Assembly: GCA_964019135.1 (NCBI GenBank)
Contig: OZ025249.1
Coordinates: forward strand, 3,410,001-3,474,000
DNA: 64,000 bases
Direction: 5' to 3'
From: Arenicola marina
Lineage: Eukaryota > Annelida > Polychaeta > Arenicolidae
The first letter of the stretch is position 1. The number at the start of each line of letters is the position of its first letter. The notes below the pieces were generated by a model that saw only the letters and a program-made list of their open reading frames with translations, did not search any database and was not told the DNA's origin. Positions 11,720 through 64,000 of the stretch are shown piece by piece. The position numbers and the translations under genes were made by a program.

Positions 11720-12221
11720 AGTTTGGTACCGACACATTTTGCTTGAATTCCCTTTCTCTAATGATCGCCTTGCGCGCTCTGGCGAAATGTGCTGGTGCGC
11801 GGTCTTAAAAGATAAGTTTGTTTATAAGCAAACTCCAGCGACAGAGAGCCAGTGTCACAGCGTTAGACTTGTAGTTCTGGCAGTCATAACTCTCATGTTG
11901 CCCTGGTTTGTTGATGAATACCTGTATTATCGGCCCACCCAGCACCCCCGCGGTAATCAGGGGGTCGCTTGGGTGTTGGCCGTGTGTGCTTAATCCCCAT
12001 AATAAATTATTTGATATGTCGGATGACTCTCGCGGTCTTTGCACTTTATGCTTCCCCCCTGACCGTAGCAGTATTTACCTTCATTGGTCGCTCAATATTT
12101 GTCCCTCATTTTCATAGATAAGGCGATCGTGCGTAGATAAAAACCAAACGTGGGCTGATCAAACATGGCTTCTAAGTCGGTCACGGTCATTAATCGCTTG
12201 AGGGTCTGGCGTGGTGTTAAC
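11720..12221. other. Unique spacer between arrays
   Basis: About 500 bp of unique sequence between the 36-bp and 28-bp arrays. Open frames here are run-ons from the array. An AATAAA lies near 12,000 on the plus strand, without a gene to assign it to. I see nothing else. Confidence 0.45.
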
Positions 12222-40046: not shown

Positions 40047-40249
40047 TATCGTTCCACTTTAAGAAATTGTAGAGAGTGGCATTGGTTAATAGTTCGTTCC
40101 GGAAAAAAAATAAGGAATGAACTGTGACAGTTGGCACAGTCTTGGTGGGCATGCAATAACCATCTTTGCATTGGATAAATGCTGTTACGGGTATGGCTCA
40201 CAGCTGCGTTTTCAACACCAATAGTAATTTATGTCAAATCTTAATTGAT

Positions 40250-46000: not shown

Positions 46001-46768
46001 AATATTTATGAAATAAGTATTAACTTTCTAGACTTTTTTACTCTTATTCACTCAATTCCGAGAGCATGGAAATGTGAAAGTGAGCGACTTGGTACCAAAC
46101 TTGTAAGTGTGGTAGCACCAGGGCTATGTGTTTTGTCGAGCAATGACAACGTATGTAACGCAGTAGATAAGTTTTTAGTTAAGAAACTGCTATCATCGGG
46201 AAAGCATGAACTTAAATGGTCAGTCTCACTAAATATCAATTTCTCGGAAAACGAATGGAAACAGATTTATTTGCTTGCAAAAACGACAACAGTCGACGAA
46301 CGGTTAAGAAGTTTTCAATATAAAGTTATTTGCCAATTTATAACAACCAACGTGTTTTTAAAACGATGTAAAATAAAGAGTGAGGACACCTGTACCTTTT
46401 GTAAAGCCGCGTCTGAGTCAATCGAGCATCTGTTTTACCATTGTCCCATTGTTAGTCAATTTTGGAATTCTTTTGTTAATTGGGTCGAAGGTAACTCAAA
46501 TATAGAGATCAGCTCAAGGTTCTCACTCTCGGTTGTTTTGTTCGGCATAAAGAACTCAGAAAAAGACCGTTTATTAAACCATCTTATACTACTGGCTAAG
46601 AAATATATTTTTTCGTGCAAGTGTAGAGAGGTTTCTCCTTGTATGCGGGATATCCCAAGATTAATAAAATATTACTATCAAATCGAAAAACATATAGTAG
46701 ACCATAACGAACATTTTAGTAAAACCTTATTTGTAAACAAATGGAATTGTATAATTTCAGCTTTTTGA
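43002..46768 (+). mobile_element. L1/Tx1-like LINE, nearly complete ORF2
   Basis: Holds a complete endonuclease-reverse transcriptase-zinc region on the plus strand, in the same orientation as the LINE 628 bp upstream but of a different family (diverged RT sequence, unrelated 3' UTR). No poly(A) tail is seen after the stop at 46,768, so the 3' end is either lost or lies in the unrecognised sequence beyond. No ORF1 precedes it, so the 5' part is also incomplete or absent. Confidence 0.8.
43002..46768 (+). pseudogene. LINE ORF2: EEP endonuclease + reverse transcriptase, one frameshift
   Basis: Residues 9-240 form an EEP endonuclease: N14, LQDVH (D43 where most relatives have Glu), TLYGPNND, GDWN (D145, N147), RLDFFLI (D209) and TDH (D233, H234). 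Residues about 460-790 form the reverse transcriptase: NKSPGNDGFPADFY, IPKGDK...NWRPITLLNADYK, GFLKGRYIGEN, LLLLDFEKAFD, GCRQGDPLSPYMFILAIEPL and QYADDTFMFLDD (YADD 708-711). After FKLLG (about 45,333) a small indel breaks the frame. Coding resumes near 45,335 and runs to 46,768, ending in CTFCKAASESIEHLFYHC. The element would nick target DNA and copy its RNA there. Only this lesion prevents a ~1,250-residue product. Confidence 0.88.
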
Positions 46769-47879
46769 ACTTTCAAAACTACCAGCTCTTGCTTTTTGTA
46801 TTGTACTTTTCTAGTATTGGATCTTTTTGTAGGGTATCTTCAGCTCATCTTCAGCTCATATTAATCTTCTGTGTTTCCACGCTTATATTATCGAGCTGTA
46901 ACGCCCCAAATAGTAGAAGGGCATACTTTTTCCACTTGTTTTTCTCACCTACCGATTTAAACTTCTGCGAGCGAGGAAAGTGACGTCAAAGGGGAATACA
47001 AACGCATGTGCTTTTATATTGAGACTCAGATTCTCTCTGCTCATTGGCTTGAACTCAACACTCAACCATAAAAACTAGACCGTCAAGCACAGCTTGAGAA
47101 GGAAGACGAAAATGGCGGTTGTGGAACCATCGCGCCTCTGTACTGTGTACATACAATATCGAACGAGGCCTAGGTCTAACCATTTAAACTGTCAGTCATT
47201 TGGCGTATCGAGGTTTTATTATGTGTTTGGACATGTCCATGTTTTAAATGCAGGGAATTAATTAGCAATGGTGTGGTACAAATGGCCTTCCCGTGAGCAT
47301 ATTACGGCTTAGTCATACTGAAGGAGTTCCATCATGGCTTTCTGATATCGTGTACATGGGAGTACGATGGTGTTTTAAGTATCGGTGGGGATATGTTTCG
47401 TTGTGATGTTAGTCGGTCTCAAGATAGAGATGGGTGGATGGAGTGCTTCGGTCGAGCCTATCGCAGAAAGAGTACAGGATTTCTCGTAAAACGTTACTGA
47501 TCGCGGGCAATACTGACTTGTAGGCCGAAATGTCACGGCGACAGTTTTTTGGCCATGTTAAAGTTATGCAATTGTTTTTTTCAAACTACGGGTTCGATTG
47601 GTATTTGTGGCGTGTAATGAAAGATGGTGTGTCGATTATATGACCTGTCATAATCAGTTCGCATTGAGTATTAACACAAATGTGCGAGGTGTCTAGTTTA
47701 GACAGTTACGATTGACATGCTCATGCATTGAAGTAAAGAACAAACCCAGTTGCAGAATAATCATAGATATAATAGTCATAAGAATAATAGTGATACATAA
47801 TACATGGTACATTTCTGGAGCATGGTATACTTGACGGCCGTCATTTAATATGTGTTTTAAGTAAAGCAGGTCAATAGGT
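46769..47879. other. Unique sequence after the LINE, with a promoter-like cluster
   Basis: About 1.1 kb of unique sequence. The promoter-like elements at 46,981-47,118 are listed separately. A short frame (49 codons) starts at the ATG in the YY1-like motif but has no recognisable identity. Confidence 0.4.
46981..47118 (+). promoter_or_regulatory. Candidate RNA polymerase II promoter
   Basis: In order: TGACGTCA (CRE, 46,981-46,988), inverted CCAAT box ATTGG (47,043-47,047), TATA-like CATAAAAA (about 47,066-47,073), then AAAATGGCGGTT about 45 bp later, which matches the YY1 initiator-region motif. Spacing fits a core promoter firing to the right with a start near 47,095-47,105. No transcript is known, and the downstream sequence is mostly repeats. 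Confidence 0.3.
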
Positions 47880-48830
47880 CATGCGGGGTTTATGACCGAA
47901 TACGTCGGCAGGTCGTCTTGGCTGCTACAGCTCTTTGGATCAGGCGGGGGTTGTGACCCAATGCTTTGGTAGATGATCTTCGCCGCTGGAGTTATTTGGG
48001 GCACGCAGCCAATACAGTTCGTTGGGTGACGCACTGTTTGTTACCCAATACTTGGGTAGGTTGTCTTGGCTGCTCGAGTTTGCTAGAATCCAGGCAGTGT
48101 TTTTGACTTAACACTTGGCTAGGTTGTCGTGGCCGCTGCAGATGTTTGGATCAGGCGATGCTGGAGACCCAATACTTGGCTAGGTCGTTTTGACTCATAC
48201 AGTTCTTTGGGTCACGCAGTGTTGGTGACCCAATACTTGGCTAGGTCGTCTTGACTGGTACAGTTCTTTGGGTCATGCATTGTTTGTGACCCAATACTTG
48301 GGTAAGTCGTCTTGACTGGTACAGTTCTTGGGTCATGCATTGTTTGTGACCCAATACTTGGGTAGGTCGTCTTGACTGGTACAGTGCTTTGGGTCACGCA
48401 GTGTTTGTGACCCAGTAGTGCGGTAGGTCGTCTTGGTAGCTATAGTAGGTCGTTGTGGCCGCTGCCGATGTTTAGATCAGGCGATGCTCGTGACCCAATA
48501 CGGCGGTAGGACGTCTTGGCTCACCTAGTGTTTGTGATACTGCAGGTCTTCTTGACTGCTACAGTTCTTTGGGGCACTTCGTATTTGTGACCCCCTGCTT
48601 GGGTAGGTTGTCTTGACTATACTTCTTTGGATCACGCAATGTTGTGATCCAATACTTCAATAGGTCGTCTTGGCTGCTAGAGTTTGGTTCACGCAGTGTT
48701 CAAGACCCAACACTGCGGTAGGTGTTCTTAGCCGCTAGATTTCTGCGGATCAGGGGATGCTTGTGATGCGAAACGGCCGAAGATCGTCTCAAGTGGCAGA
48801 TAACGTTATTGGGGTCGCGTAGTTCGCGCG
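47880..48830. repeat. Degenerate ~61-bp tandem repeat with GGGTCAC/GTGACCC palindromes
   Basis: About 13-15 imperfect units. The best-preserved copies (48,185-48,420) are 60-61 bp and contain TTGTGACCCAATACTTGGGT, AGGTCGTCTTGACTGGTACA and GTTCTTTGGGTCACGCAGTG. GGGTCAC and GTGACCC face each other across about 9 bp, so each unit can form a hairpin. Outer units are strongly decayed. Confidence 0.85.
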
Positions 48831-48899
48831 ACCAAACATGGGCCTGACGTATTTATGGGCTATGGACTGCGCTATTGACTGACTGCGCCTAACTATATC

Positions 48900-49700
48900 A
48901 CGGTCGTCGATATAGTTGACTCAATCGGTGACATGCTCGTTGGGGCGGACGCTTCAAGCGATTGAAGTATTGCCCCCTTACAATTGTCATAGTGAGTATT
49001 CTCCCTCCCCAATGTCATCGTGGGCGATATAGTTGAGTCAATCAGTAGCACGCTCGCCAGGGGCGGACGCTTCTACCGACTGAACTATTGCCCCCTCCTC
49101 CCTAACTTCGTGGGCGATATAGTTGAGTCAATCAATAGCACGCTCGCCAGGGGCGGACGCTTCTACCGACTGAACTATTGCCCCCTCCTCCCTAACTTCG
49201 TGGGCGATATAGTTGAGTCAGTCGGTAGCGCGCTCGCCAGGGGCGGACGCTTCTACCAACTGAACTATTGCCCCTCCGACCTATCTTGGTGGGCGATATA
49301 GTTGAGTCAGTCGGTAGCGCGCTCGCCAGGGGCGGACGCTTCAACCGACTGAACTATTGCCCCTCCCATCTATCTTGGTGGGCGATATAGTTGAGTCAGT
49401 CGGTAGCGCGCTCGCCAAGGGCGGACGCTTCTACCAACTGAACTATTGCCCCTCCCACCTATCTTGGTGGGCGATAGAGTTGAGTCAGTCGGTAGGGCGC
49501 TCGCCAGGGGCGGACTGAAGTATTGCCCGTTCCTCCATATCTTCGTGGCGATATAATTGAGTAAATCGGTAGCACGCTGAGCAGGGGAGGACGCTTGTAC
49601 GAATTTCAGTATTGCCCTATTCCCCGATCGCCGTGGGCGATATGGTTCAGTCAATCGGTAGTACGCTCGCGGTCACTTTTACCGACTGAAGTATTACTTG
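48900..49700. repeat. ~89-bp tandem repeat with two convergent tRNA-A-box-like arms
   Basis: About nine units at 88-91 bp, starting near 48,905, 49,022, 49,112, 49,202, 49,290, 49,379 and 49,468, with decayed ends. The plus strand of each reads GGGCGATATAGTTGAGTCAG then TCGGTAGCGCGCTCGCC. The minus strand of the same unit reads GGGGCAATAGTTCAGTCGGT then AGAAGCGTCCGCCCC. Both resemble the 5' half of a tRNA gene, with an A-box-like TAGTTCAGTCGGTAG. No B box is present, so it is not a tRNA gene. The array ends about 650 bp from the 3' end of the Helentron gene. Confidence 0.85.
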
Positions 49701-50348
49701 GATATCATACTACTACTACTACAACAACTACTACAACATATCAACAGTAATTACAAATGCAATTTAATTGCGGGGTAGCACAAATGATCAGACGGTGGTG
49801 CATGTGCTGTACAATCATGGAGAGCGCAATAAAATGTCATCGGTATTAATAATAAGTTAAAAGCCGTAATCGGAAATATTTGCATTGCTCTGTATTTGGT
49901 GAGTAGTAGGACTGACTGAAGAACGAGGTGATTATTTCATCGCTTAGTAGTGAATTCGGCGTTTGTCGTCGTTAGTTATTTGTTCATGTCGTAGTGTCGA
50001 ATTATTTATTGTTATAATTTGATCTTGGCAAAGATTGATGTTGCAGTAATTATGGTTAGTTCGCACCTTCGCCTGTGGTGTTTTCTACTTGTGTAGTCGT
50101 TTATTTCACACGTGTTTCCCTTTAAATTGAGGTCATGTATAGCATATTTTTCATTTCATAGTCCGTTAGTAATCGCGTGTATTTTCTGTTGGTAGTCCGC
50201 TATGTTTCGTCATGCTGTTTGGTAGTTGCTGAAAGTATAAGACAGTTTTATTGTTGTTGTCATTGTTAGTTTTGCTGTTTTTGATAACCTTGTCGCCATT
50301 GTTCATCTGTATTTGCTTGTCGCGGCTTGCGTTCGACCTGTCAATGGC
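49701..50348. other. 3' flank of the Helentron gene
   Basis: Transcribed side beyond the minus-strand stop. Candidate minus-strand AATAAA signals are at 50,247-50,252 (about 100 bp past the stop), 50,100-50,105 and 50,005-50,010. A short CTA/CAA simple repeat sits at 49,710-49,740. The element's 3' terminus should be in or near this region, but I could not fix it. Confidence 0.4.
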
Positions 50349-53300
50349 TTATGACAAGCGTGTCGTGATATATGTTGCGTCGTGGTCTGAGAAATAAATG
50401 TCTCGAACGTCGACAGCGGTTGATACATCCTTTCTGTTGTAATATATGTGATCTATGAGTGAGCCATTCTTGGTTGTTGCTTGTGAGACGTATTGTTGCA
50501 GTCCCCAAACGTTCATCAGCGTCACAAGTGGTGAAGTCGGCTGTTGCGTAAGGTTGTCGTTAAAGTCGCCGAGGATAATGGTCGGTACATTTAGTGGTAG
50601 CAGCGTCAGCAAAGTTTCCATTGCAGGTAGGAATGTAGGTAGGTTTGAGGATGGTGGTCTGTACACGAGACATACAACTAATCTGAATGTTGGTGTTTGC
50701 AGCGCGACGACGATTGATTGCAGTCCGTCAACTTTGACTAGTTGTAGTTCCTTTGGTCTGAGAGCACTTGAAGCACATATCATCAGCCCATGTTTGCCAC
50801 CGTGATGTCGCTCACTTGGGACATTCAGTCTGAATGACACGTAGTTGTGAGTCTGTAGGAAGTTCTCAATGGTGTGGTTGTCCGTCAAGTAGGTCTCTGT
50901 GAAGCACATCACATCTGTTTTCGACAATATTTGCTTTTCTGGTTCAGTGTTTAGGTCGAGGAGTCTATCGAGGAAGTAAGGAGCATTGAGATGACCGACA
51001 GTTATTATCTCCGGCGAGTTCTGAGTCAACAGGTTTGGTGCGTCTGGCACTGGTATAGCTTTTTGCCGCATCGTGTCCATTTCATTTGTAACTGTACCGT
51101 TTGCCTTGATGCCAATGGGATCAAATGCAGTGATGTAGAGGCCACTCAACGATCTAACTCGACTGAACGCGACGTATGCCTGACCGGGACCGAACCTTCT
51201 GGCACCCTTCATGCAGACAACAACTTGTTCCAGAGTCAAACCCTGGCATTTATGGATGGTTACAGCCCATGCAAGTGTCAACGGAAACTGGTGACGCGTG
51301 ATTTGAACACCTTTCGACCCACACTTTTCGTACGGTGTGCCATGTCTCTGAACAGGAACTGCATTTGGAAAGTCTCTTTTCCATGCACTGAGCGCAATTG
51401 CCTTTCTGCCCACTTTGTCTATGTCAAATTTGACAAGTATTGTTGCCACATCGTTTTTGTCATTTCTAATGATGGCTTGCACTTGACCGATAACACCATT
51501 GACCAGTCCATCGGCAGTATCAACATTTGATGTCATCATCACTCTGCCACCAACAGCAAGTGTCAGTACTGTGTCCATTCCACCAGTCTGTGAACGTTTC
51601 AAAGGTGTCTGTAGCTTTGTCATGTCTAGTTGTCGTGTGCTGTCGGTTTTGTCATCTAGTGCAACGATTTGAACTTGCTCGTCTGGAGGTGCCAGGGTAT
51701 CAAGCTGCTTAGAATTATGTGCATCGACGTCAGCATTGCGGGCAAACAAGTGGAGAGCGTTCGTTGGGTAATCCGGGTTGGTGGTCGTGACTTCTTTGGA
51801 TCGGAGGACAGTGATGTCCTGTTTCGTATGTTTCCCTGTTCTGACTCGACACAGCAGGTCTGAGAAGGCAGCGTCATTTTGTTGTCGCATGCTTTGATCT
51901 AGTTCGTGAAAGTCGAATTGTTCGGTCCACAATCCACCGTAGTGCAATCGTGCCATTGGATCGGTGACTGGGTCGAATATGTAAGGTTGACATACCGGTG
52001 GTAGCTGATAGAGATCGCCAACAGCAAGTACTGAGACATTTCCGAACCAGACGTCGTCGCCAGAGACTCCCTTGATTTCGCACATGCGCTTGTGAATGTT
52101 GAGAAGCATATTTGAACTGACCATGGAGATCTCATCGATGATGATAAGTTGTACGGATTCTAATTTCATGCGAAGGGTGTTAAGCTTGTCGAAAGACAAA
52201 GGTTCATGTGCGGTGCCATATTTCGACACTCGAAGCAACAGGGCTGAATGTATAGTCATGCCGCCAATGTTGAAAGCCGCTACACCGGTCGGGGCCATGA
52301 GAAGAGCTGTCAGGTCAGCGGGTGCGAATTTCAGCGACAGGGATAGCAGTTTTTTTGTCTCTGACTGAATGAGTCTAATGACGTGACTTTTGCCCACACC
52401 ACCTGCACCACTTAAGAAGAGTCTGTAGGGTTTCACTGGTTTGTTCTCTTTCAGAGCAATGACGGTTTGTCTGCACCACTTTCGATGGTAGAAAACAATT
52501 TGTCTCTGTTTGGCATTGAGGTTACGCATCATCTGTCGGTACTCTGATGGTGGCAGTGTTTGCATATCTGATTGAGCTTCGTAACGTGTCACTAAGTCCG
52601 ATGTGGTGGCCGCAGTCTTCCCAGTCAACATAGCTGCATTGGCATCAAGATCTTCTTGTTCGATCACTCTCTCAACGTCCACTCCTTCGCCTGCATCTTG
52701 CAAGTTCTGGTGTTCTGCTTCTGGTGCTACATTGTCCCATGCGTGTTCTGGTGGTCCGTTCATGGCATTCTGCATCATTGCTTGATCAATAAGTTCCAGA
52801 TTTTGTGTGAAATGTGCTTCGACGGTCAGTATCTGTTCCCGGACTTGTGCATAACGGGTGGCGTAGTTATCGCAGTCGGCAATCAGGTCCGTCGTTTCGT
52901 TTCGCCAAGGAAAGAACAGCATCAACTTTGCTCTGTAGTGCTCTTCTGGATCCTTGTCATGATCGAAACGTCTAAACCGTATGACAACCTCTCGTTTGCG
53001 TTTTCTCATTTTGCCATTGCCATCTTTAAGCTGTATTACTTTGGGCATAAGATCTCGTTCATCGAGAGCGGCGTCGTCATCGCGAAGGTCATTTAGGATT
53101 TGAGGCATGACATCCTGATTGTCTTCATCACTGTACTTGACCGCGTAATTTGAGGCAAAGGTAGCCAGGCTGAGATGTTCGATGACATCGGGTCTCGCTG
53201 AATATCTGTCGATGATATTCCGTTGGAATATGTCGAGATCGTCGTCGTCTTTGTCAGCTAGTTCTTCGGTTGATTTTAGTACTGCAGCTCTTTCTGACTT

Positions 53301-56300
53301 GCGATCGGTATTGACGAAGACAACTTCTCTGCTAAATCTCTTCATGGGCATCGACAATATGCGGTAGGCGGCCTCTTGAGCGCTGACTTCACGGTGGTTT
53401 AAGAAAACCGATCCAAGCTTCCTCAGAGTCTTTCTGACATCTGCGTCTTTGCTTTCCTTTGACACATTTTTCAACAGTTCTCCCATGCTTCTCTCACTCT
53501 TTGTCATATATGCAGCGATGTACATGACGCATGCGTATGCATCCAGCACATATTGCAGGTCCATGTTTGCTTGCCATGCTCTTAAAAGAGTCTCATTGAA
53601 TTGGTTGAGGCATTGTTGAGAGGGTTGTCTTTTCAATACTATGTTGTTGCCAGTTTGAGATACAGACAAGGCTTGCGCATACTGTTCTTGGGTGATATTT
53701 GCCTTTTGCAAGACCATTTCCAGTGTGGTATTGTTGTCCGTGTCTTTGTCCTCGAGGATATTGCGAACATTGCCCAAAGTTTCAGTTGTACGTCTGAGAA
53801 GTTCGGCTTTGTCACCTTCGTTTGTTGGTTCCCTTGCGAGTATAGTGTGTGTACTGGGTGGTCGCGGATATTTGAAGCGGCATTTTTGGTTTCTGCGGCA
53901 ATACGCTGAGTGACTGTGTTTCTGTAACTTGGCTGCGTGTTCAGCGAATGATGGGTCATTTTCAGGGAGAGCACAAGTGACATGTTTGTCGACAAAGTTG
54001 CATATTTCAGCATCTGTTTGAACATTCAGTTTTGGCGCGTCCTTCACCCACAAGAGGATATGTGCATGTGGGGATCCACGAGCTTGGAATTCGATACGTA
54101 TCACGTAATCAAGGATTTCGCCAATCGGATGAGCGCTCGACTTGATGACTTCGGTGAAGAGGAGTTCCAATCGATATTCGAAATGTCGTGCCGCGGTGAC
54201 TGGATTTGTTCGTAGCCACATTTGTCTGTCTTTCCATGCCATGTTTTTAACGTCTTCGTCAGTCAAGACTGTACCATACTGCCTGGCAATCGTCTGAAGC
54301 ATGTCGGGCCACTGTACATCCGCAGCTGTGAGCGTGAGAAACCATGTTGGTACCCCAAGGTATCTGATCATTGCAAGGACATCGTAAAATACAGTTTGAA
54401 AGTACGCTGGTGATCCTCTCACTTGTTTTAACACTTTGTAAGCGTGATCAGTCTGAATCAGCTGTTTCATTCGCTCAGGATCTTTCACGAAGCTGGCATC
54501 GATTTTTCGGCCTTGGTGTTCTTTTCTTGTCATTCGGCGAAAGATGAAGTGATTAATATCACTGTGTACCTGTTTGCTTTCTACTGCGTACTGCGCGCTA
54601 AGGAGGTACTCGACAGACTTGGCGAACCTGCCATCCACATCTAAGAGTCTTTGGTTGAAGTATTTCCTGGGAGTGATTGTGCGAGTACGTGTAGTGGTTA
54701 ACGTGTGTGCAGCGTCAGGATACTTGTCAGGATTTGCTAATTCCTCAAAGTTCTGATCGCTGAGCAATGGTTGTGGTTTCTCGAATTCGGCTGGGGCTAT
54801 GCTGATCTGTTTGCCAGTGAAATCGGGGTTTTCTAGAATCAAGCTAGTTTCGTAAGGTAAACCAGTGATGTCTCGTGTGCGAGCAAATGCTGCCTCATCT
54901 TCCTTAGCGTCGTGTTCGTCTGCTTCCGTTGTACGAGGGTCATTTGTTGCAGATTGAACTGGATTTCCCAGAAGTTCACGTTCGGTACTTTTAGGCAGAA
55001 GAGCAACGTAGTGGAATTGCTGAATGAGTCCAACGTAGAAGTCACCGGTACTGTCTCCGATCATCGGTATTATTGGGTCCATGTCGAGATTGCTTGATGC
55101 AAGCACATGAATGGTTACGTGTAGCATATTAGCCAAGCCTTGGATAGCGACGTGTTCGCCCCATTGAGTGCCGAAAGCAAGGCCTTCCAAGTATTTAAGC
55201 CAGCGGATTTCTTGTCGGCTCTCGACATCGTCAATACGTGCAACGACGTAATCTTCAGCAACTGGCCGTTCTGTGTCGGCGTTCATTGGATCGTCATTTT
55301 CAGTCGGTTGAGCCATGAAATCGCGGTAGTACAGTCCGTTTGCGCATTGCGGGTTGTCCTGCATGTAGTCGGCTAATAGTCTTCTCAAGTGCTTTGGGGT
55401 CATTGTGCCAGCATCTGACTTGTTCATATGCAAGGAGATTGCCGAAAAGAGACAGTCACCATCTCTAGGTACATCGATCACGTCCAGGTCTTTGCTGTTT
55501 GCCGCCGTTGTAACAAGTTCAAACGCAGTATGGAAGTCATCGGGTTTCGGCAGCGAATCACAAGCACTTGACACATTGCTAGTTGCACTTGACACATTGC
55601 TAGTTGCACTTGACACATTGCTAGTTGCACTTGACACATTGCTAGTTGCACTTGACACATTGCTAGTTGCACTTGACACATTGCTAGTTGCGCTTGCAGA
55701 TGTGGTGGGTATTTCACCATCTCGTTTTGCGTGGCTATCATCGGTATTTGTCATTGCTTGCCACAACGTAGGATCATCTTGGTGGCACTCATCAGACCAG
55801 TTTTCGTTGATGTCGATGTTGCTATACAAATGGTTATTCTGCTTAAGCCATCTCAAGGCAGCCATCACCTTTGCCGGGCGTACGTAGTCGTACATGTAGT
55901 TGGATTTGTATGCTAATCGTCTCTTCAATTTCAAAGGCACGACCTGTGATTCGGAGGGTAGACGCGGAAACTGTTTACAAACAAAGTCTAGCTTGGATGG
56001 AACGTTTACCGCTGGACCGTGAATTGCCTGTTGTTTGCCACGAGGAAGTGCAACCATCTTCATGAACGGAATTCGCTGGGACACTAATCTTAGTTCGAGA
56101 TTGTTCAATTCTTTCAGTTCAGAGGGCTGCGGCGCTAACGTCAGTTTGTTACATTTCGCTTGCACGGGCATTTTTCCACGTTTCAAAGATAAGTGACATG
56201 TTCTGCAAATCCATTCTTTGTCATTGACCGATTTCACTCTGTGTTCCAACACGCCATTGACGAGATCGTGGGATGCGTTGGGGTAGCTAGTGTCTTTCAG

Positions 56301-57314
56301 TATTACGACTGTTCTTCGGTACATCAGTCGGTGGCACGAAGAGCAGACATAATCGGCTGCATCTCGGACTTTGCTCAAGAAGGTTGCTATGACACCATCA
56401 GCCGTTGAAATGCCAGAGCGTCGGTTGTGTCGTAATGTTGTCATTAGCCGTCGCGCTTGTGATAGTCTCGCAACAGTCTCATCAGGATTTTGTTCACTTC
56501 GTGCTCTCTTCGTTGTAGCGTTATCTGTTTTGAGTCGCGATGTTCTTTCTGCACTCGTTTCAGCGGCTCGTGCTCTCTTCGTTGTGGCTTTATTGCTATG
56601 GAGTCGAGATTCCCTTTCTGCGCTCGTTTCAGCGGCTCGTGCTCTCTTCGTTGTGGCTTTATTGCTTTTGAGTCGGGATTCCCTTTCTGCACTAGTTTCA
56701 TCGGCTCGTGTTTTCTTTGTTGCAGCGTTATCTTTATGGAGTCGAGCTTCTCTTTCTGCACTAGTTTCATCGGCTCGTGTTTTCTTTGTTGCAGCGTTAT
56801 CTTTATGGAGTCGAGCTTCTCTTTCTGCACTAGTTTCATCGGCTCGTGTTTTCTTTGTTGCAGCGTTATCTTTATGGAGTCGAGCTTCTCTTTCTGCACT
56901 AGTTTCATCGGCTCGTGTTTTCTTTGTTGCAGCGTTATCTTTATGTAGTCGAGCTTCTCTTTCTGCACTAGTTTCATCAGCTCGTGTTTTTTTTGTTGCA
57001 GTTTTATCTTTATCCAATCGAGATTGCCTTTCTGCACTCGTTTCATCGGCTCGTAAGGAGGCCTTTGCAGTTCGATCCACAGAACAGCGATTTAATGTTT
57101 CTTCATAATTTTCTCTGTCACGTCGGTTTCTGATGGCAAATTTGTCATTTTTCTGTCTTTCGACCGTTGCCTCGGCAGATTCTCTGGCACGTGCCGTACT
57201 CCGGCGCTCGCGGTCTCTTTCCCGGTATAGAGCAGTGGTCGCTTCATCTGGCGCTCTCCGACGTTTCCGATCTAGTTTCTTTTGTTGTTCACTTTTTTTT
57301 TTAAGACGTGGCAT
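50349..57314 (-). CDS. Helentron transposase: OTU - HUH Rep - PIF1 helicase - EEP endonuclease, 2321 aa
   Basis: One uninterrupted, intronless frame; ATG at 57,314, TAA at 50,349-50,351. Residues 1-87 are basic and helix-prone. Residues 88-271 hold eight 23-aa repeats of RADETSAEREARLHKDNAAT type. C324xxC327 and C370xxC373 form a zinc-binding pair, followed to about 500 by the domain that usually precedes Helitron Rep (Pfam DUF6570, from memory). Residues 542-583 are six ATSNVSS repeats. Residues 612-772 are an OTU cysteine-protease-like domain (D618-G-D-C621; H768). Rep spans about 884-1275: FLTLTAADVQWPD, PH1083AH1085 (HUH), tyrosines Y1265 and Y1269. The PIF1-like helicase spans about 1600-2065: GAGGVGKS (K1642), IIIDE (D1727), GDLYQLPPV, TIHKCQG. 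The EEP endonuclease (2104-2321) has E2140, GDFND (D2250, N2252), ID2288H and SD2310H2311. It would nick, unwind and transfer single-stranded transposon DNA. No key residue is missing, so the copy may be active. Confidence 0.95.
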   Translation of the reverse strand: MPRLKKKSEQQKKLDRKRRRAPDEATTALYRERDRERRSTARARESAEATVERQKNDKFAIRNRRDRENYEETLNRCSVDRTAKASLRADETSAERQSRLDKDKTATKKTRADETSAEREARLHKDNAATKKTRADETSAEREARLHKDNAATKKTRADETSAEREARLHKDNAATKKTRADETSAEREARLHKDNAATKKTRADETSAERESRLKSNKATTKRARAAETSAERESRLHSNKATTKRARAAETSAERTSRLKTDNATTKRARSEQNPDETVARLSQARRLMTTLRHNRRSGISTADGVIATFLSKVRDAADYVCSSCHRLMYRRTVVILKDTSYPNASHDLVNGVLEHRVKSVNDKEWICRTCHLSLKRGKMPVQAKCNKLTLAPQPSELKELNNLELRLVSQRIPFMKMVALPRGKQQAIHGPAVNVPSKLDFVCKQFPRLPSESQVVPLKLKRRLAYKSNYMYDYVRPAKVMAALRWLKQNNHLYSNIDINENWSDECHQDDPTLWQAMTNTDDSHAKRDGEIPTTSASATSNVSSATSNVSSATSNVSSATSNVSSATSNVSSATSNVSSACDSLPKPDDFHTAFELVTTAANSKDLDVIDVPRDGDCLFSAISLHMNKSDAGTMTPKHLRRLLADYMQDNPQCANGLYYRDFMAQPTENDDPMNADTERPVAEDYVVARIDDVESRQEIRWLKYLEGLAFGTQWGEHVAIQGLANMLHVTIHVLASSNLDMDPIIPMIGDSTGDFYVGLIQQFHYVALLPKSTERELLGNPVQSATNDPRTTEADEHDAKEDEAAFARTRDITGLPYETSLILENPDFTGKQISIAPAEFEKPQPLLSDQNFEELANPDKYPDAAHTLTTTRTRTITPRKYFNQRLLDVDGRFAKSVEYLLSAQYAVESKQVHSDINHFIFRRMTRKEHQGRKIDASFVKDPERMKQLIQTDHAYKVLKQVRGSPAYFQTVFYDVLAMIRYLGVPTWFLTLTAADVQWPDMLQTIARQYGTVLTDEDVKNMAWKDRQMWLRTNPVTAARHFEYRLELLFTEVIKSSAHPIGEILDYVIRIEFQARGSPHAHILLWVKDAPKLNVQTDAEICNFVDKHVTCALPENDPSFAEHAAKLQKHSHSAYCRRNQKCRFKYPRPPSTHTILAREPTNEGDKAELLRRTTETLGNVRNILEDKDTDNNTTLEMVLQKANITQEQYAQALSVSQTGNNIVLKRQPSQQCLNQFNETLLRAWQANMDLQYVLDAYACVMYIAAYMTKSERSMGELLKNVSKESKDADVRKTLRKLGSVFLNHREVSAQEAAYRILSMPMKRFSREVVFVNTDRKSERAAVLKSTEELADKDDDDLDIFQRNIIDRYSARPDVIEHLSLATFASNYAVKYSDEDNQDVMPQILNDLRDDDAALDERDLMPKVIQLKDGNGKMRKRKREVVIRFRRFDHDKDPEEHYRAKLMLFFPWRNETTDLIADCDNYATRYAQVREQILTVEAHFTQNLELIDQAMMQNAMNGPPEHAWDNVAPEAEHQNLQDAGEGVDVERVIEQEDLDANAAMLTGKTAATTSDLVTRYEAQSDMQTLPPSEYRQMMRNLNAKQRQIVFYHRKWCRQTVIALKENKPVKPYRLFLSGAGGVGKSHVIRLIQSETKKLLSLSLKFAPADLTALLMAPTGVAAFNIGGMTIHSALLLRVSKYGTAHEPLSFDKLNTLRMKLESVQLIIIDEISMVSSNMLLNIHKRMCEIKGVSGDDVWFGNVSVLAVGDLYQLPPVCQPYIFDPVTDPMARLHYGGLWTEQFDFHELDQSMRQQNDAAFSDLLCRVRTGKHTKQDITVLRSKEVTTTNPDYPTNALHLFARNADVDAHNSKQLDTLAPPDEQVQIVALDDKTDSTRQLDMTKLQTPLKRSQTGGMDTVLTLAVGGRVMMTSNVDTADGLVNGVIGQVQAIIRNDKNDVATILVKFDIDKVGRKAIALSAWKRDFPNAVPVQRHGTPYEKCGSKGVQITRHQFPLTLAWAVTIHKCQGLTLEQVVVCMKGARRFGPGQAYVAFSRVRSLSGLYITAFDPIGIKANGTVTNEMDTMRQKAIPVPDAPNLLTQNSPEIITVGHLNAPYFLDRLLDLNTEPEKQILSKTDVMCFTETYLTDNHTIENFLQTHNYVSFRLNVPSERHHGGKHGLMICASSALRPKELQLVKVDGLQSIVVALQTPTFRLVVCLVYRPPSSNLPTFLPAMETLLTLLPLNVPTIILGDFNDNLTQQPTSPLVTLMNVWGLQQYVSQATTKNGSLIDHIYYNRKDVSTAVDVRDIYFSDHDATYITTRLS
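55566..55691 (-). repeat. In-frame 21-bp coding minisatellite (6 copies)
   Basis: Six copies of a 21-bp unit encode ATSNVSS (residues 542-583) between the DUF6570-like and OTU domains. Five copies look identical at the DNA level and the end copy has one substitution, so expansion is recent. It serves as a Ser/Thr-rich linker. Confidence 0.93.
56502..57053 (-). repeat. In-frame 69-bp coding minisatellite (8 copies)
   Basis: Eight 69-bp units encode 23-aa repeats (residues 88-271) rich in Arg, Lys, Glu and Ala. Copies 2-5 are nearly identical in DNA; the outer copies are diverged. Predicted to be long charged helix. Confidence 0.94.
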
Positions 57315-58137
57315 ATTGATCAGTTATATGAACGATTCGATGCGAAGCGGAAAAATGGCGTATTTGAGAAGTGTTGTATTAAACTTTTAAGGGATATTTC
57401 AGTAGGCGTTTGCGGTGGACACGAATATGGGAAGGAGAGATTAATAATCCAAGTCTGCTCGGTAGTAGTGGTACTGGCGGGAACACAATCTTAATTGCAA
57501 AAGAACGAGGCAGTATAAGATTGCGGAGATTTATACAGGTAACCAAATGAAAAGGTTTTCTAGTAGGCAGTAAAAAGGTTAAGTCACTGGTATATTTGTC
57601 TTAGTCTCCCGGTAGACGCTTTAAGCTCTCAAGTGAAATGCCTAGTCAAAAGATCTCCTTTATCTGTACCAGTTCGAAGCGAAGTTGTCGAATACGAATC
57701 TGTATGCAATCGATATAGCACACAGGGACAAGGAGCAGCAGTTCAAAGAACAATTCTGACACGAAATGAACACAACGGAAGGCAGTTTTTATTTCCAGAC
57801 AACACAGATAGCAGTGAAACAGTACTGGTATTACACACAGGTACCGGCAAAACACGTACGAGAGGCACCAGAAATACAAATTTGATATACGAAGTCCTGT
57901 GCGGTGTGGTCTTACTGCGGCGATATTCTGTCCGATTAGACGATCTGCACATGGAGGTCTTCAGACTTGGATGAGTATCAGCAAATAATTCAGACGTTAC
58001 GAGTAATTAAGATTTCGTAGCCAATAAAGGACGATAGCTTATTCGTAAGAAACTCAGAGCCGATAGTTGGCATTCACTAAATTTAATGAGTACCAGGATA
58101 CGTAATATCAAGCGATAACGTAGTGACGACGTGAGTA
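57315..58137. other. 5' flank of the Helentron gene
   Basis: Upstream of the transposase ATG on the minus strand; presumably promoter and left terminal sequence. A 113-codon plus-strand frame (57,633-57,974) has no family resemblance and I do not call it. Confidence 0.4.
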
Positions 58138-58228
58138 TTAGTTCAATATCGTTGAGTTGCTCAGTTCAATATCATTTACTTGCTCAGTTCAATATCGTTA
58201 AGTTGCACAGTTCAATATCGTTCAGTTT
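58138..58228. repeat. ~23-bp tandem repeat GTTCAATATCGTT (4 copies)
   Basis: Four units with CAGTTCAATATCGTTNAGTT, about 23 bp apart, directly left of the 70-bp array. Confidence 0.85.
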
Positions 58229-58234
58229 GCTGCC

Positions 58235-58705
58235 CTGTACCTACTACAACCGAACGGGCAAGTCAATTCGGTTGAGGATCTGAGAATGCAGATCGAACAG
58301 TCAATCGTTCAGTATATCGTTTTTGAGATTGTATTGTTGATTGATCGAGTCTGAGACTGCAGACCACAGGTTCGCCCTTGCGCTACTATAACCGAACGGG
58401 CTGTTTATTCGGTTAAGGATCTGAGACTGCAGACCACAGGTTCGCCCTCGCTCTACTATAACCGAACGGGCTGTTTATTCGGTTAAGGATCTGAGACTGC
58501 AGACCACAGATTCGCCCGTTGCTGTACTATAACCGAACGGGCTGTTTATTCGGTTAAGGATCTGAGACTGCAGACCACAGGTTCGCCCAATGCTCTACTA
58601 TAACGGAACGGGCTGTTATTCGGTTAAGGATCTGAGACTGCAGACCACAGGTTCGCCCTTTGTCCTACAACAACCGAACGGGCTGTTAATTCGGTTGAGG
58701 TTCTG
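58235..58705. repeat. 70-bp tandem repeat with AACCGAA/TTCGGTT hairpin (5 good copies plus a decayed one)
   Basis: Units of 70 bp contain GGATCTGAGACTGCAGACCA, CAGGTTCGCCC and CTACTATAACCGAACGGGC followed by TGTTTATTCGGTTAA. AACCGAA and TTCGGTT form a perfect 7-bp stem across an 11-base loop. The first unit (58,235-58,290) is diverged. Position 5' of the Helentron gene suggests it could be subterminal repeat sequence of that element. Confidence 0.88.
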
Positions 58706-59041
58706 TCACTGCTGAACCTGCCACCCAGCAGACGACCAACAAACTGGAAGGAGAAAGGAACAAATTTTGTATAATGAATGCAAATCAAGTGCACATAGTT
58801 GTTCTAAACACTGTAATAGTCGTACCACATGTTGAATCATTATGATTACCGGTAGTCCGCGGAAAGTTAAGAAATTGTAATGGCATAAATACTGCACAGA
58901 AGTGCAGTGTCCGACCGAAGATATCAATCAGTCGAAAAAGCAGGATTGTTGCAAAGCAAATGGTGAATAATTTAGTGCATCACTAAACTACATGTTATAC
59001 CGTGGAAACAGCCATGACTTATCTATGATGCAGACTTACAG

Positions 59042-59086
59042 CAAGGAAGTAGTGTAAGCAGCGGGTACCGCTTTCCAACGGCGTCT
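59042..59086 (+). other. Candidate 45-bp exon, phase 0-0
   Basis: An open GC-richer segment between GACTTACAG and a strong donor TCT|GTAAGT encodes QGSSVSSGYRFPTAS. It is exactly 15 codons. It is consistent in phase with the candidate exon at 59,874-59,996. Evidence is splice signals and codon content only. Confidence 0.3.
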
Positions 59087-59873
59087 GTAAGTAGAGGTGC
59101 AGGTTTAATGACATTGTCATCCGGTGTAACATTGTGAGACAGAAAGTAAGTGAACACACGTAATTGACACTATATAGGAGTGACTTATTGATGGCGATAT
59201 GGATTTAACCCAGTGACAAAGCCTTAAGGTAAGTGAATGTTTGCATGAATTTTCTGAAGAATTTCAGAACAGAGAAATGCTGCAACATCCGGTAACTTTA
59301 GCCAATTGTCGATTGACTGAAGGTGAAGAGAGGGTGGGGAGGTGAAAAATATGCTTGTTTCTTTTAATAGGTATCGCGTATGGAACTATTTTGAAATGTA
59401 GTAAAGGAAAAGTAGTTGAAAGTTCTTGCATTGAACATGGCAGTCAAAGGGAAAGTCCTTTAAATGTATTTGTCTTTCAGATTTTGACGAACTGTTGAAC
59501 AGACTTACCCGAAAAACTGTCTGGGAAATATTGCAATTATATGCTTGTTAGAAATATAAGTGTACTTGAGAAAAGGCTCATAAATACCTCATTATGCTTT
59601 CTATTTATCTTGTAAATTAGTAATAGTTGTTCCAATTTTTAAGTCACTATTTTTTTAGGAATCTTTTGCTGGTAATTGACTAAAGAGGAAACAATCTAGG
59701 GAAAAATGACGAGCTTTTAACCTGTGTTGACGGTTTTAAAAAGGTTATGCGAAACTGTGTTATAATGATCTGATGCAATAACCCTGATGTTAAAATGTGA
59801 CAATGTGATTTATTTGTCCATCAATATGTATAGTATATATTTAGGAGTAATTGTTGCTGGGAGGGGCCTTTAG

Positions 59874-59996
59874 AACGTCCATATGTTCACACCGGGCAAT
59901 GCGCCGGAGACGTCATCAAATTGTGTACAGTCTGTGACACAAAATCTCAATGTACCAGACAGTTTTGAGCATTTGAACATAACGAATATACCCCAG
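59874..59996 (+). other. Candidate 123-bp exon, phase 0-0
   Basis: After GGGGCCTTTAG the plus strand is open for exactly 41 codons to CCCCAG|GTAAAT. It reads NVHMFTPGNAPETSSN through SVTQNLNVPDSFEHLN to NIPQ. It is visibly CpG- and GC-richer than the AT-rich surroundings, as expected for an exon in intron sequence. The Ser/Thr/Asn-rich peptide has no recognised domain. An in-frame ATG at 59,883 could alternatively be a translation start. Confidence 0.4.
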
Positions 59997-61302
59997 GTAA
60001 ATCTTTTAATTACACTACATTATGAAGATGCTTAAAGAATTATTAGTCAGCATGGTGATTGCGGAATGAAGAGTTTGTGACATGTGTAGTGTTGGTTACA
60101 TTCTACAACCATAGCTGTAGATCATGCTGCGGGGCGATGGAACTATTTTCTTGAATTGCATTGTCATTCTGTAATATGTTTAAAAATAGTTTACAGTGAT
60201 TTTGCATAAAGGATGACTAATAATATATTTCCATATAGATAGAGCTCGTTTCAGTTATATGAATTGAAACCATACATAATAGCAAGCGAGTTCTTAATGT
60301 AACATGCATGCGTATGTTGCAGAATCAAAGTTCATTAAAAGCATAACTTCGGACTTTCATTTCGTGTCTAATCCCCCAAGCGACATTTTCAATTTCGCAG
60401 TTAATTGTAAATAATTTATCAGTTGTAGATAAATTCATATCAGCATAGACAGATGGAAGCCTGTTATTTAATCTGATATTGTTAACATATCAAGTGTAGC
60501 ATGCCATTTTTGTTTTATTACAATGATCATGGGACGTCAATATTATGTCACTTCAATCCGTGTTGTTATCTGAATGGAACACACAGGCCTACATTTCTAT
60601 TGGCTTTGATATGCAGTTTATGTGTACCCACCTCAATTACAGAAATACACTCCCATAGTTGGCATTGCCTTTTCGAGTACCAATCTTGTGAAGTTCTGCA
60701 TTATAAATGTATATATATAATAGCGAGTAGGCACTGGTAATCTGCAGCACTGGCTATATGTTCCCTAGACTTTTTCAATCTACAAATACTTGCGCTCGCC
60801 CCTCAGGCTTTACCTATATGACATATTAATGATATATGTTAGCTCTTCCAATATGACGAGGGCATGGGTGTTGGGCATTGTGCTAATCGTGTATGAGATA
60901 TACACTGATGGTTTTGTAGCATATTAGCCATATATATCATATGTTACCTACCAGTATATGAAGGAAGGAAGTAACACATCACAGAGAGTACAGTTTTAAG
61001 ACATTATATATCTAGATATGGAGTTATAAGTTTATGGTAGCAAAGCAACTGCAAGGGTGACCAAAATACTAACTTATTGACATAAGAGGACATGCCAACC
61101 CCCAGGTCTGCAGAGTTAAATGTAAGATATTGCATATTTACAGCATTTTAAAAAGCCGAAGTGGAATAGGAAGAAGTTAAGTTCAGACATCAAAAGCCAG
61201 TCACAGGGCATTTATTTAATTAATGCAGAACTGCAGATCCTGGTCTATATATAGCAATAGTGCTTGTATTCTTCATAATGTTTGGTGATGCTTGAAATAC
61301 AT

Positions 61303-61316
61303 TGTATATATATCGA
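61303..61316. repeat. Target-site duplication of SINE, left copy
   Basis: TGTATATATATCGA, identical to 61,578-61,591. Confidence 0.88.
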
Positions 61317-61577
61317 TTTAATTTGATTTGATTGATTCAGGACGGTTTAACCACTTTTGGTCATATCGCGTCAATGGGAGAAGGAAGGGAGAGTGGAGCC
61401 ATGTCCCCAGGGTAACCCCCTACTCTTTGCGAAGAAGGACATAGGATCTTTATCCTGCGACCACACAGACATGACCACAGCAGGGCGCGAACCATCGACC
61501 CACGTGCCGTTAGGCTCTCAGGTGGCCGGAGCGCTCAATGCGAGCGCTCCTGCCCACTGAGCTGTCGGGCCGCCCCC
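61317..61577 (-). mobile_element. tRNA-derived SINE, full length
   Basis: On the minus strand the element starts GGGGGCGGCCCGACAGCTCA and carries an A box (CAGCTCAGTGGGCAGGAGC, 61,546-61,564) and a B box (GGTTCGCGCCC, 61,483-61,493), i.e. an internal RNA polymerase III promoter. A tRNA-unrelated body of about 140 bp follows, then a short tail of AATCAATCAAATCAAATT type. Perfect 14-bp direct repeats flank it. It has no coding capacity and would depend on a LINE for movement. The long open frame across it is chance. Confidence 0.9.
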
Positions 61578-61591
61578 TGTATATATATCGA
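61578..61591. repeat. Target-site duplication of SINE, right copy
   Basis: TGTATATATATCGA, identical to 61,303-61,316, which defines both ends of the insertion. Confidence 0.88.
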
Positions 61592-62808
61592 CAAGTTTGC
61601 AGAATCGTATTTGAATGGACTTAAGAGTTGGGGGTTGTGTTCATCTCCTTGGCCATATTTCGCCTACAGAGCAATTTAATAAGCAAGAGGCCTTTAAAAA
61701 GAATCATTCCATACAATAAGTTATAATGCATTTAGAATAGTGACATTTTTTTTGTTAATTACATTGTGAAATTTGTAATTATTAGCACAATGATGTGTCA
61801 AATATTGCGAAGTAGGAATTTTTTTACAGAATTTATGTGACAACTTTTAGCTAAATATCTTCACTTGTGAATGCAATTAAAGAGCTGACAGAGTGAAAGT
61901 TGTAATAAAACTTGTCTCGATGTATGGCCATGTCATGTTGTCTATGATGCATGCAAAGATGTCTTGGGTTAATTAAATGGATTATGCCATCATAACCGTT
62001 TTAAATATGATATGTTCTGCTCGAGATTACATATATTCTCTTTCTAAGACATTTTAACTGTCACGAAATAAATGATCTTACAAAAAGAGAAGGCTACGTA
62101 TATGGTATAATCCTAATTCTTGGATGTAATTTAATGAAAACACTACCAGCTGTATGCATTTTGTGACATATCTGTGAATTGAATATCAATTGCTGTACAA
62201 CAACTGTATACAGATCTATTTCCATGATGTTAAGTGGTACTCTGTAGTGTATGTGACATAAGTTATCACTATTGACATGAAATGTTGCTGCATGAATGGT
62301 AGGAAAGGTGAGAAAAAAAAATGGCAGGAAAGTGTAGAGAAGTTGACACACTTTTAGAAACTGCATTGCGATAATGCCTTTCACATATGAACTTTGGAAA
62401 CACATTTTTGTGACCCTGATGGAGAGCGATACATTTTAAGGTGAAGTATGTAAAGAGTCTATAAACTTGACTGTACCAAAATGGGGCAAAAATGCAGAAG
62501 TATAGCCTTTTCCCCTTTTAACTGAGTTTCAGAAAGAAGATGCTATATTTTGACATGCCAATCACACCTGATATCTAGCCATGTGACATAAAAATTCCCT
62601 GCACTAAATGTACCATTTTCATGTATTACAAGCAGAATAGCAAACTGTTCAGTGATTGCATATATATAGCAAATAGTTGCAAGTAGATGTGTTTTGGGGC
62701 CAATGTAGGACTTATTTTGGCTGTGTTAGAGGCAATTAGACATAAATGCCTAGAACTTTTTCCTGATCAGTGACATGTTTTTTATTATATGTACAAAGAG
62801 ATACATAT
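61592..62808. other. AT-rich unique sequence
   Basis: No gene or repeat is recognised. Confidence 0.4.
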
Positions 62809-62813
62809 ACAAT

Positions 62814-63093
62814 CTGGGCTCGCGCCAGGATATTTTTTTCATTAGCCAATTTGGCTAATTCCGTGGAAAAACATTAGCCAAAATTAGCCAAATATATTGG
62901 TTATAAATTCGTTATAAATCTCATAATTGGAGACGAATGTAGTAGATCTACCATGTAATGTGAACATGAAAAAAAATGTGTTTGTAGTTGAAATTTTATA
63001 TTCGCCATTTTGGCGACTGTCCAGGAAGTTCTTATCGCCAAATCCCGAATTTTCTCGCCAAATGGCTATTGGCGAATGCTAACGCGAGCCCAG
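62814..63093. mobile_element. 280-bp MITE with 11-bp terminal inverted repeats
   Basis: Ends in perfect inverted repeats CTGGGCTCGCG (62,814-62,824) and CGCGAGCCCAG (63,083-63,093). ACAAT directly flanks both sides (62,809-62,813 and 63,094-63,098), a candidate 5-bp target duplication. Inside, GCCAAA/TTTGGC motifs recur on both strands (for example ATTAGCCAATTTGGCTAAT), making further inverted pairs. It is non-coding. The transposase family cannot be assigned from these ends. Confidence 0.72.
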
Positions 63094-63098
63094 ACAAT

Positions 63099-64000
63099 AC
63101 TGATGGAGAGGGAAAGCAAATTTACCCACCACCTGCTGTTCACCTCTATGCAGTATTAGATAACTTTAAATTACTATTTACTATCCCATATATTGTAACT
63201 AAGAAGGTGCAGATTGAGCAATAAGAAATCTTGGAAATGGAAACTTCCAACAATGTCTATTAGTAAACTGTAGGATTATGAAATCATGTAAAAGTTTAGA
63301 TATATATAATGTCCTTTTTATTGTATAGATTTAAGCAAGCAGAAAAGATATTTTATCCGTAAGCTAAATTTTAGATATTGTGAAGTATTGCTGATATTAC
63401 CTATGCAACAGTAACTTTTTAAGTCAAAACCTTGATTCTGAATGCACTATATGGTACAAACTTGGCTAAAGTGACCCCAAGCAAGCCCACTTCTCTATAG
63501 ACACAATATGAAATTGCTTAGACATTAGGGAATTTACCGTAGCCTTTCATTTTAAGAATTTTTATAAACGACTGTAGCTGTACCAGGTATAATATGATGA
63601 GCAGGGTGACACAACCATGGCAATAGAATAGAAGTTTAACAAAATTAAGCATCACATTGAGGACCATCAATGTCTCTACATGATATACAGATGTTGCCTA
63701 TCCGCTTAGTGGGTCTACCTATCAAATTGTCATAATTTGAGGAAATACCCATGCTTCCAACACTTCTTTACAGAAAATATGGCAAAAATACCTTGGGAAT
63801 GAAGACATATTATTTGTATATAGAATATGTCAGCAATATAATTGTATGCATACAGTTGATGGTGAAAGCTGCCATTGATTCCCTACTGATATATGAGGAA
63901 TTAGACATTGACACTGTGATAATTACCCGACCAGTGATTGTACAGGTACCAATAATAATTGCGCACTCAGCGAAAGATGGTTAAAGTTACATATGGAGCT
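63099..64000. other. AT-rich, intron-like sequence
   Basis: Unique sequence. One weak exon candidate near the end is listed separately. Confidence 0.4.
63856..63945 (+). other. Weak candidate 90-bp exon, phase 0-0
   Basis: An open 30-codon segment between ATGCATACAG and GTACAG|GTACCA reads LMVKAAIDSLLIYEELDI through TVIITRPVIVQ. The acceptor's pyrimidine tract is poor and composition is AT-rich like the surroundings, so this is only a possibility. The shared phase with the two candidates at 59 kb is the main reason to list it. Confidence 0.18.

Follow-up and report, generated by a model that had tools for sequence, protein, structure and literature searches.

Helentrons that join OTU, Rep, helicase, and AP-type (apurinic/apyrimidinic-type) endonuclease domains have already been published, as the consulted excerpts of four reports attest (PMC4067079; PMC5148889; PMC6431247; PMC9741609). 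An element of this kind occupies part of a 64,000-nucleotide stretch (hereafter the window) of the annelid Arenicola marina (GenBank assembly GCA_964019135.1, contig OZ025249.1, positions 3,410,001 to 3,474,000), which is G000:C2:3410001-3474000 in the genome that was searched (867 Mb, 762 contigs). Like the OTU/AP-endonuclease Helentrons in those excerpts, it combines Rep, helicase, and endonuclease with OTU and displays subterminal inverted repeats (subTIRs), a 3′ palindrome, non-autonomous partners, and internal tandem repeats (PMC4067079; PMC5148889; PMC6431247). Unlike the elements as described there, it carries an N-terminal STPR array, ends in 3′ CTAG, and belongs to a family with three diverged 5′/N-terminal types on one young core. 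The locus is probably a young Helentron of autonomous type whose OTU domain most likely deubiquitinates, and in whose family recombination put the core beside diverged 5′ and 3′ modules. The architecture and the alternation of OTU with VTD are already known; the core/edge mosaic is the least expected part.

Two further systems are close to this one in the portions of the sources available. The zebrafish Helitrons DrT1 and DrT2, which bear VTD, are likewise Helentrons with a deubiquitinase domain and Rep, helicase, and EEP endonuclease (PMC9741609). Compared with these, the Arenicola protein has OTU, a predicted deubiquitinase, and VTD carriers are here placed on a tree, where they form one clade among OTU carriers. 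The oyster element Cg_HINE shares a 5′ subTIR, after which come a complementary repeat and a microsatellite, as well as a 3′ subTIR with a palindrome and satellite-like repeats (PMC7492417). In contrast to Cg_HINE, whole units lie head to tail here, and an autonomous-type partner is linked to them by shared ends.

The transposase is encoded by a single open reading frame (ORF) of 2,321 residues that runs from ATG to stop on the minus strand (57314..50349). Its features are as follows:

50349..57314, minus strand: Helentron transposase ORF, 2,321 residues (ORF list, Pfam)
56511..57062, minus strand: STPR array of 8 x 23 residues (residues 85-268), a coding 69-bp tandem repeat (Pfam, repeat scan)
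55740..56387, minus strand: two CxxC pairs (C324, C327, C370, C373) plus DUF6570 (379-505) (Pfam, alignment)
55564..55696, minus strand: coding 21-bp minisatellite (7-residue linker) between the N-terminal module and OTU (repeat scan)
54939..55517, minus strand: OTU domain with D618/C621/H768; modelled residues 600-792, Pfam 617-741 (Pfam, model)
54051..54662, minus strand: Rep, Helitron_like_N (885-1088), HUH at 1083-1085 (Pfam)
53508..53522, minus strand: Y1265/Y1269, kept in 120/120 listed homologs
51063..52433, minus strand: PIF1-type helicase, residues 1628-2084 (Pfam)
50382..50933, minus strand: EEP (AP/LINE-type) endonuclease, residues 2128-2311 (Pfam, alignment)

Pfam places STPRs, DUF6570, OTU (E value 4.1e-10), Helitron_like_N (7.3e-31), PIF1 (2.5e-19), and Exo_endo_phos (1.5e-11) in this order, each above its cut-off. 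The features that define a Helentron protein are present: Rep contains an HUH motif (H1083-A-H1085) and two catalytic tyrosines and is fused to a PIF1-type helicase (Walker A GAGGVGKS from residue 1636, Walker B IIDEIS from 1725), and an AP/EEP endonuclease lies C-terminal to both. From what is known of the family, Rep would nick and join the element ends, PIF1 would unwind DNA, and EEP would help to cut the target. An initial annotation of the window had identified the uninterrupted frame, without its strand, and the Helentron class, here borne out by the Rep-PIF1-EEP fusion and by a 3′ subTIR with a palindrome. It had also correctly named the HUH and Walker motifs and the catalytic residues of OTU, Rep, and EEP; D618, C621, H768, Y1265, Y1269, E2140, D2250, N2252, D2310, and H2311 are kept in 10/10 intact copies of the same family. 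The STPR repeats, DUF6570, the two CxxC pairs, the coding 21-bp minisatellite, and the element limits are additions to it.

The N-terminal module would bind element DNA through its STPR and CxxC parts. The STPRs match (PF21107) scores 30.2 bits against a Pfam cut-off of 27.0, and its 23-residue tandem repeats are those of the FMBP-1 DNA-binding domain, found here in a transposase, where DNA binding is putative. With a single sequence as query, 5d23, the structure of FMBP-1 (E 0.0034), was matched no more strongly than OspA (E 0.0033), which is unrelated. A literature search found no STPR in a Helitron or Helentron. The number of STPR units varies from 3 to 8 among the 10 intact copies and that of minisatellite units from 2 to 7. 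C324, C327, C370, and C373 are invariant across 16 aligned sequences; the fold model of the CxxC/DUF6570 region was poor (mean predicted local distance difference test score, pLDDT, 64.2) and gave 0 Foldseek matches at E ≤ 0.001.

A search of the genome with Rep gave 53 matches, from which loci L001-L008 were taken. Ten copies were fetched first by Rep score (nine equal to the window’s 115.2, and c2a with 115.5), and five more were fetched later. Nine of the first ten have intact ORFs of 2,181-2,300 residues, which makes ten with the window; c12b (C12:20237084) was dropped from ORF comparisons, having one stop in the Rep match, no long Helentron frame, and 643 bp in common with the window element (75% identity). 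Across the 45 pairs, synonymous divergence (dS) of the core (residues 605-2321) ranges from 0.0009 to 0.0175 with a median of 0.0114, and the ratio of nonsynonymous to synonymous divergence (dN/dS) is 0.275. The family is young, as the initial annotation had supposed of this copy; its proposed comparisons between copies thus yielded near-identical, intact relatives rather than ancient, degraded ones.

Changes found in one copy only also point to selection on the core, with 37 nonsynonymous (N) and 41 synonymous (S) singletons against an expected N fraction of 0.74 (p=6.6e-7). The signal persists without residues 885-1088, which were used to pick the copies (N=36, S=31, p=2.8e-4), and by domain it is strong in Rep and helicase. 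An older subfamily, L036, is 91% identical to the window at the nucleotide level and gives dN/dS values of 0.207 (OTU), 0.124 (Rep), 0.107 (helicase), and 0.225 (EEP). Relative to L036, purifying selection is acting on every catalytic domain, including OTU. Some results among the young copies weigh against this picture. Taken alone, singletons show no significant departure from neutrality for OTU (p 0.18), residues 1301-1600 (0.54), and EEP (0.28); EEP has a dN/dS of 0.653 among young copies, on few changes; and OTU has 1.676 between the window and the close copy L034 (98.6% identity), again on few changes. L034 has an alignment gap at K1642, and its start lies outside the compared stretch; L038 is broken. 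A second family, L035 and L037, has intact ORFs with 59-60% amino acid identity and a core dS of 0.031. Both members have Asn at the position aligned to EEP D2310 in ORFs that are otherwise intact.

The ten copies agree in the core and differ at the edges. Over about 5 kb of core, any two of them are 99.3-99.98% identical. In the 2 kb that precede the ORF, three types occur: type A (window, c5, c19a, c2a, and c2b), type B (c12a, c19b, and c8), and type C (c3 and c7); A and B are about 88% identical, and C is 74-75% identical to either, so that the types are 11-26% apart. The 3′ ends are of type I (window, c5, c19b, c2b, c3, and c7) or type II (c2a, c8, and c12a), about 94% alike; c19a, which aligns to the 3′ end only in part, is left out of this typing. 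All four combinations of A/B with I/II are present. For example, c19b and c8 are 100% identical in the 5′ part and 99.98% in the core but 93.9% at the 3′ end. In raw log-likelihood differences on fixed trees, the 5′ data favor their own tree over that of the core by 955 units and over that of the 3′ end by 1008; the 3′ data favor their own by 626 over the 5′ tree and 614 over the core tree. The core data, which hold little signal, lose 4 units on the 5′ tree and 71 on that of the 3′ end. Through recombination, the catalytic core would have come to sit in elements whose 5′/N-terminal and 3′ modules are older and diverged. No paper on a core/edge mosaic of this kind was found, a weak negative from a literature search at the level of titles.

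How the mosaic arose can be read in more than one way. Neutral gene conversion has about an even chance of being the explanation: it is efficient where copies are alike, so cores would be homogenized and diverged edges would not. The change to the common core takes place between the STPR array and OTU, at entry points that differ in c3 and c7, and in type B it is graded rather than sharp; both observations fit neutral conversion. However, the change-overs, one between STPR and OTU and the other past the ORF end, keep the enzymatic part as one block, which may be chance with n=10 copies. Less likely, and offered tentatively, a fixed engine of OTU, Rep, helicase, and nuclease may have recombined repeatedly with swappable “reading heads,” each consisting of an STPR array and its matching 5′ control DNA. 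If this is true, changing the head together with its DNA perhaps allows escape from host silencing or from competing non-autonomous copies, while recombination keeps the engine current. Assembly error is improbable as the source of the mosaic. The mosaic is known from the assembly alone, and about 5 kb of core that is 99.3-99.98% identical in 10 copies is a likely site for an assembler to jump between copies. However, a mis-join could not yield cores that are 99.5% identical beside 5′ regions that differ by 11-26%, and c3 and c7 share a 5′ type yet enter the core at different points. Because mis-joins shuffle flanks but cannot make cores alike, some real exchange or conversion of the core is required.

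The role of OTU was approached through its fold and its homologs. Structure prediction (residues 600-792) gave an OTU fold, as the initial annotation had expected for residues 612-772; a profile search of the PDB matched OTUD5 (E 7.5e-10), and a single-sequence search of the PDB found nothing relevant. Residues 290-2321 have 263 homologs at E ≤ 0.001, far more than chance would give, of which the best 120 (38-58% identity, many spanning >95% of the query) underlie the conservation, tree, and domain counts given here. Where C621 is aligned, Cys is found in 90/90 homologs, Cys with His in 89/90, and Asp-Cys-His in 86/90. Among homologs without a gap, the EEP residues are kept in 101/101 (E2140), 98/99 (D2250), 99/99 (N2252), 94/96 (D2310), and 95/96 (H2311). 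Precomputed annotation of the 120 records VTD in 8, GDSL in 6, and STPR (PF21107) in 20. The GDSL/SGNH hydrolase domain is N-terminal in the OTU Helentron homologs P0007, P0010, P0013, P0014, P0017, and P0018, and is above cut-off in 4/4 rescanned (P0007, P0010, P0013, and P0018), each with STPR and OTU. In a phage collection, among the matches listed (20 of 431 records), matching is confined to the helicase (query 1582-2132).

The homolog tree suggests what the element needs from this domain. When the upstream DUF6570 region is aligned (n=94), 82 homologs have OTU, 8 have VTD, a herpes-tegument-type deubiquitinase, and 4 have neither. Of the 22 listed homologs that have neither OTU nor VTD, 18 have a short N-terminus (<140 residues ahead of the core), so the absence of OTU from these is weakly informative. 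In a FastTree tree of residues 791-2075 (121 sequences, midpoint root), the eight VTD proteins (P0088, P0089, P0090, P0091, P0094, P0097, P0104, and P0107) form one clade (support 0.999) amid OTU carriers, adjoining P0083, which has OTU (40 bits). On rescanning, all eight match PF04843 at E ≤ 0.0018, at the N-terminus and not in OTU’s place, and 0/8 match OTU at E ≤ 0.01 in Pfam. One deubiquitinase class, VTD, thus appears to have replaced another, OTU. The alternation of the two in transposons is already published, with the suggestion, in the part of that report consulted, that the deubiquitinase shields from degradation the proteins on which transposition depends (PMC9741609).

Given the OTU fold, catalytic residues, selection, and homolog tree, the domain most likely removes ubiquitin from transposase or host proteins at the site of transposition. 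This would spare these proteins from degradation rather than cut the polypeptide into pieces. Several points temper this reading. VTD activity has been measured and transposon OTU activity has not, according to the same excerpt (PMC9741609); only 4/8 VTD matches exceed the Pfam cut-off (P0088, P0089, P0094, and P0107, with P0090, P0091, P0097, and P0104 below); and the eight carriers, being close relatives, count as one replacement event.

The initial annotation had called the product a polyprotein and proposed either protein processing or deubiquitination for OTU. Several enzymes do share one 2,321-residue frame, and a protease that splits the giant protein into Rep, helicase, and nuclease pieces, in the manner of viral polyprotein proteases, is among the possibilities named in print (PMC4067079, in the portion available). 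Gly-Gly also occurs in homolog linkers, in 57/94 between residues 792 and 884 and in 32/94 between 1280 and 1600. However, the window protein has no Gly-Gly in the linkers between its domains; all six lie in helicase or endonuclease, and only those at Walker A (120/120) and 1911 (99/112), both in helicase, are widely conserved. Moreover, one homolog clade has VTD instead of OTU, which favors deubiquitination over self-processing. Self-processing is therefore unlikely, and the sequence gives no evidence of the cleavage that the word polyprotein implies. It is more doubtful still that OTU is a mere passenger, or a relic, with no enzymatic role. The 4/94 homologs with neither domain would fit a relic, and the OTU singletons are too few for a test (N=3, S=3); against it stand the dN/dS of 0.207 relative to L036 and of 0.157 in the second family, the latter on little divergence, and C621 in 90/90 aligned homologs.

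The limits of the element in the window, with its non-coding repeats, are:

47075..64000, minus strand: part of the element inside the window; upstream junction at window-equivalent 68608, outside it
47075..47096, minus strand: 3′ terminus, hairpin CAAGC-TGT-GCTTG, then ACGGTCTAG
47103..47113, minus strand: 3′ subTIR ATTTTCGTCTT; partner units carry its exact reverse complement, AAGACGAAAAT, at their 5′ end
48013..48435, no strand assigned: 61/121-bp tandem repeats, 3′ non-coding part (repeat scan)
49020..49670, no strand assigned: 89-bp and related tandem repeats, 3′ non-coding part (repeat scan)
58350..58712, no strand assigned: 70-bp tandem repeats, 5′ non-coding part, upstream of the ORF (repeat scan)

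The subTIR and palindrome at 47075-47113 are the 3′ end expected of a Helentron, and the copies show the same order: subTIR ATTTTCGTCTT, hairpin CAAGC-TGT-GCTTG, and ACGGTCTAG. Helentrons insert between T nucleotides and make no target duplication; after CTAG, the six copies with type I ends read TTTTTATGG, GTTTTTCTG, GTTCTTTG, and GTTATATC, and two continue into partner units. With ≤1 mismatch allowed, the genome holds 342 occurrences of the terminal 22 bases (reversed control, 0). Further 3′ ends in the orientation of the window element’s own are found in a series at window-equivalent 47075, 68609, 71816, 73222, 77475, and 82912; from this spacing, the window element is a unit of 21,534 bp, the 3′-most of a head-to-tail series, and extends about 4.6 kb past the window’s end. 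On either side of the ORF (11.3 kb upstream, 3.3 kb downstream), six-frame stop-to-stop pieces are ≤135 residues long and were judged by eye to be non-coding. The 89-bp repeat (48942-49670, reverse strand) looks by eye like the 5′ half of a tRNA; ARAGORN found no tRNA in the window.

The 5′ subTIR is present in partner units. At L041 (G000:C2:14913780-14919300), units of 1,446 and 1,967 bp start TTAAGACGAAAATTTT(C/A)AATTTTCGTCTTATG, in which a palindrome contains the 3′ subTIR as its exact reverse complement; a GTCT microsatellite comes next, and the same arrangement occurs downstream of c3. What the short partner units have in common with the element is its 5′ ~1.2 kb and its final 55-77 bp. 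The unit of 1,967 bp is most plausibly a non-autonomous partner with an internal deletion, since it aligns to the 5′-most 1.2 kb of the window element at 93%, to that element’s final 55 bp at 91%, and to 312 bp of c2a’s upstream sequence at 100%. The upstream junction of the window copy tells against the autonomous-type reading: CTAG is followed by TCTGTG, and the 5′ subTIR and the 5′ hairpin of complete partner units are absent. The suggestion that this copy is possibly active is supported for the protein. That the element is a canonical Helitron or a long interspersed nuclear element (LINE) is scarcely credible: 3′ CTAG does fit the 3′ CTRR of canonical Helitrons (PMC5148889, in the part consulted) and the EEP is of LINE type, but this EEP is fused to Rep and helicase, a subTIR is present, partner units start TTAAGACG rather than TC, and the ORF has no RVT match in Pfam at E ≤ 1.

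Among 100 of the 342 terminal matches listed, 76 lie in one orientation in a single C2 cluster (G000:C2:14787265-15002466, at least 215 kb) with gaps up to 23.7 kb. Among these matches, spacings recur exactly (1967 ten times, 1917 seven, and 1371, 1446, and 1541 six each), and two 1,967-bp units that were fetched are identical. The cluster is a transposon-derived satellite with a higher-order pattern, and the fetched L041 piece consists of perfect head-to-tail non-autonomous units. Head-to-tail arrays are thought to result from a bypassed rolling-circle stop signal (PMC4067079, in the excerpt available).

Beside the Helentron 3′ end lie two LINE-type sequences on the plus strand (window 40166-42198 and 43002-46768), both with RVT_1 and zf-RVT and the second with EEP in Pfam. 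A single Rfam match to snoMe28S-Am2589 (40222-40328, plus strand; 38.5 bits, gathering threshold 37) falls inside a LINE reverse transcriptase frame and is possibly due to chance. At 2238-11723, 9.5 kb of 36-bp tandem repeats keep long frames open on both strands (3,214 and 2,038 residues); these are not evidence of genes.

A young family with many intact copies of an OTU Helentron provides a system for assaying the role of OTU in transposons. The tree, with its apparent replacement of one deubiquitinase class by another, suggests that the activity required by the element is deubiquitination itself. Possible swapping of DNA-recognition modules in rolling-circle transposons becomes testable through the core/edge mosaic together with the STPR module.
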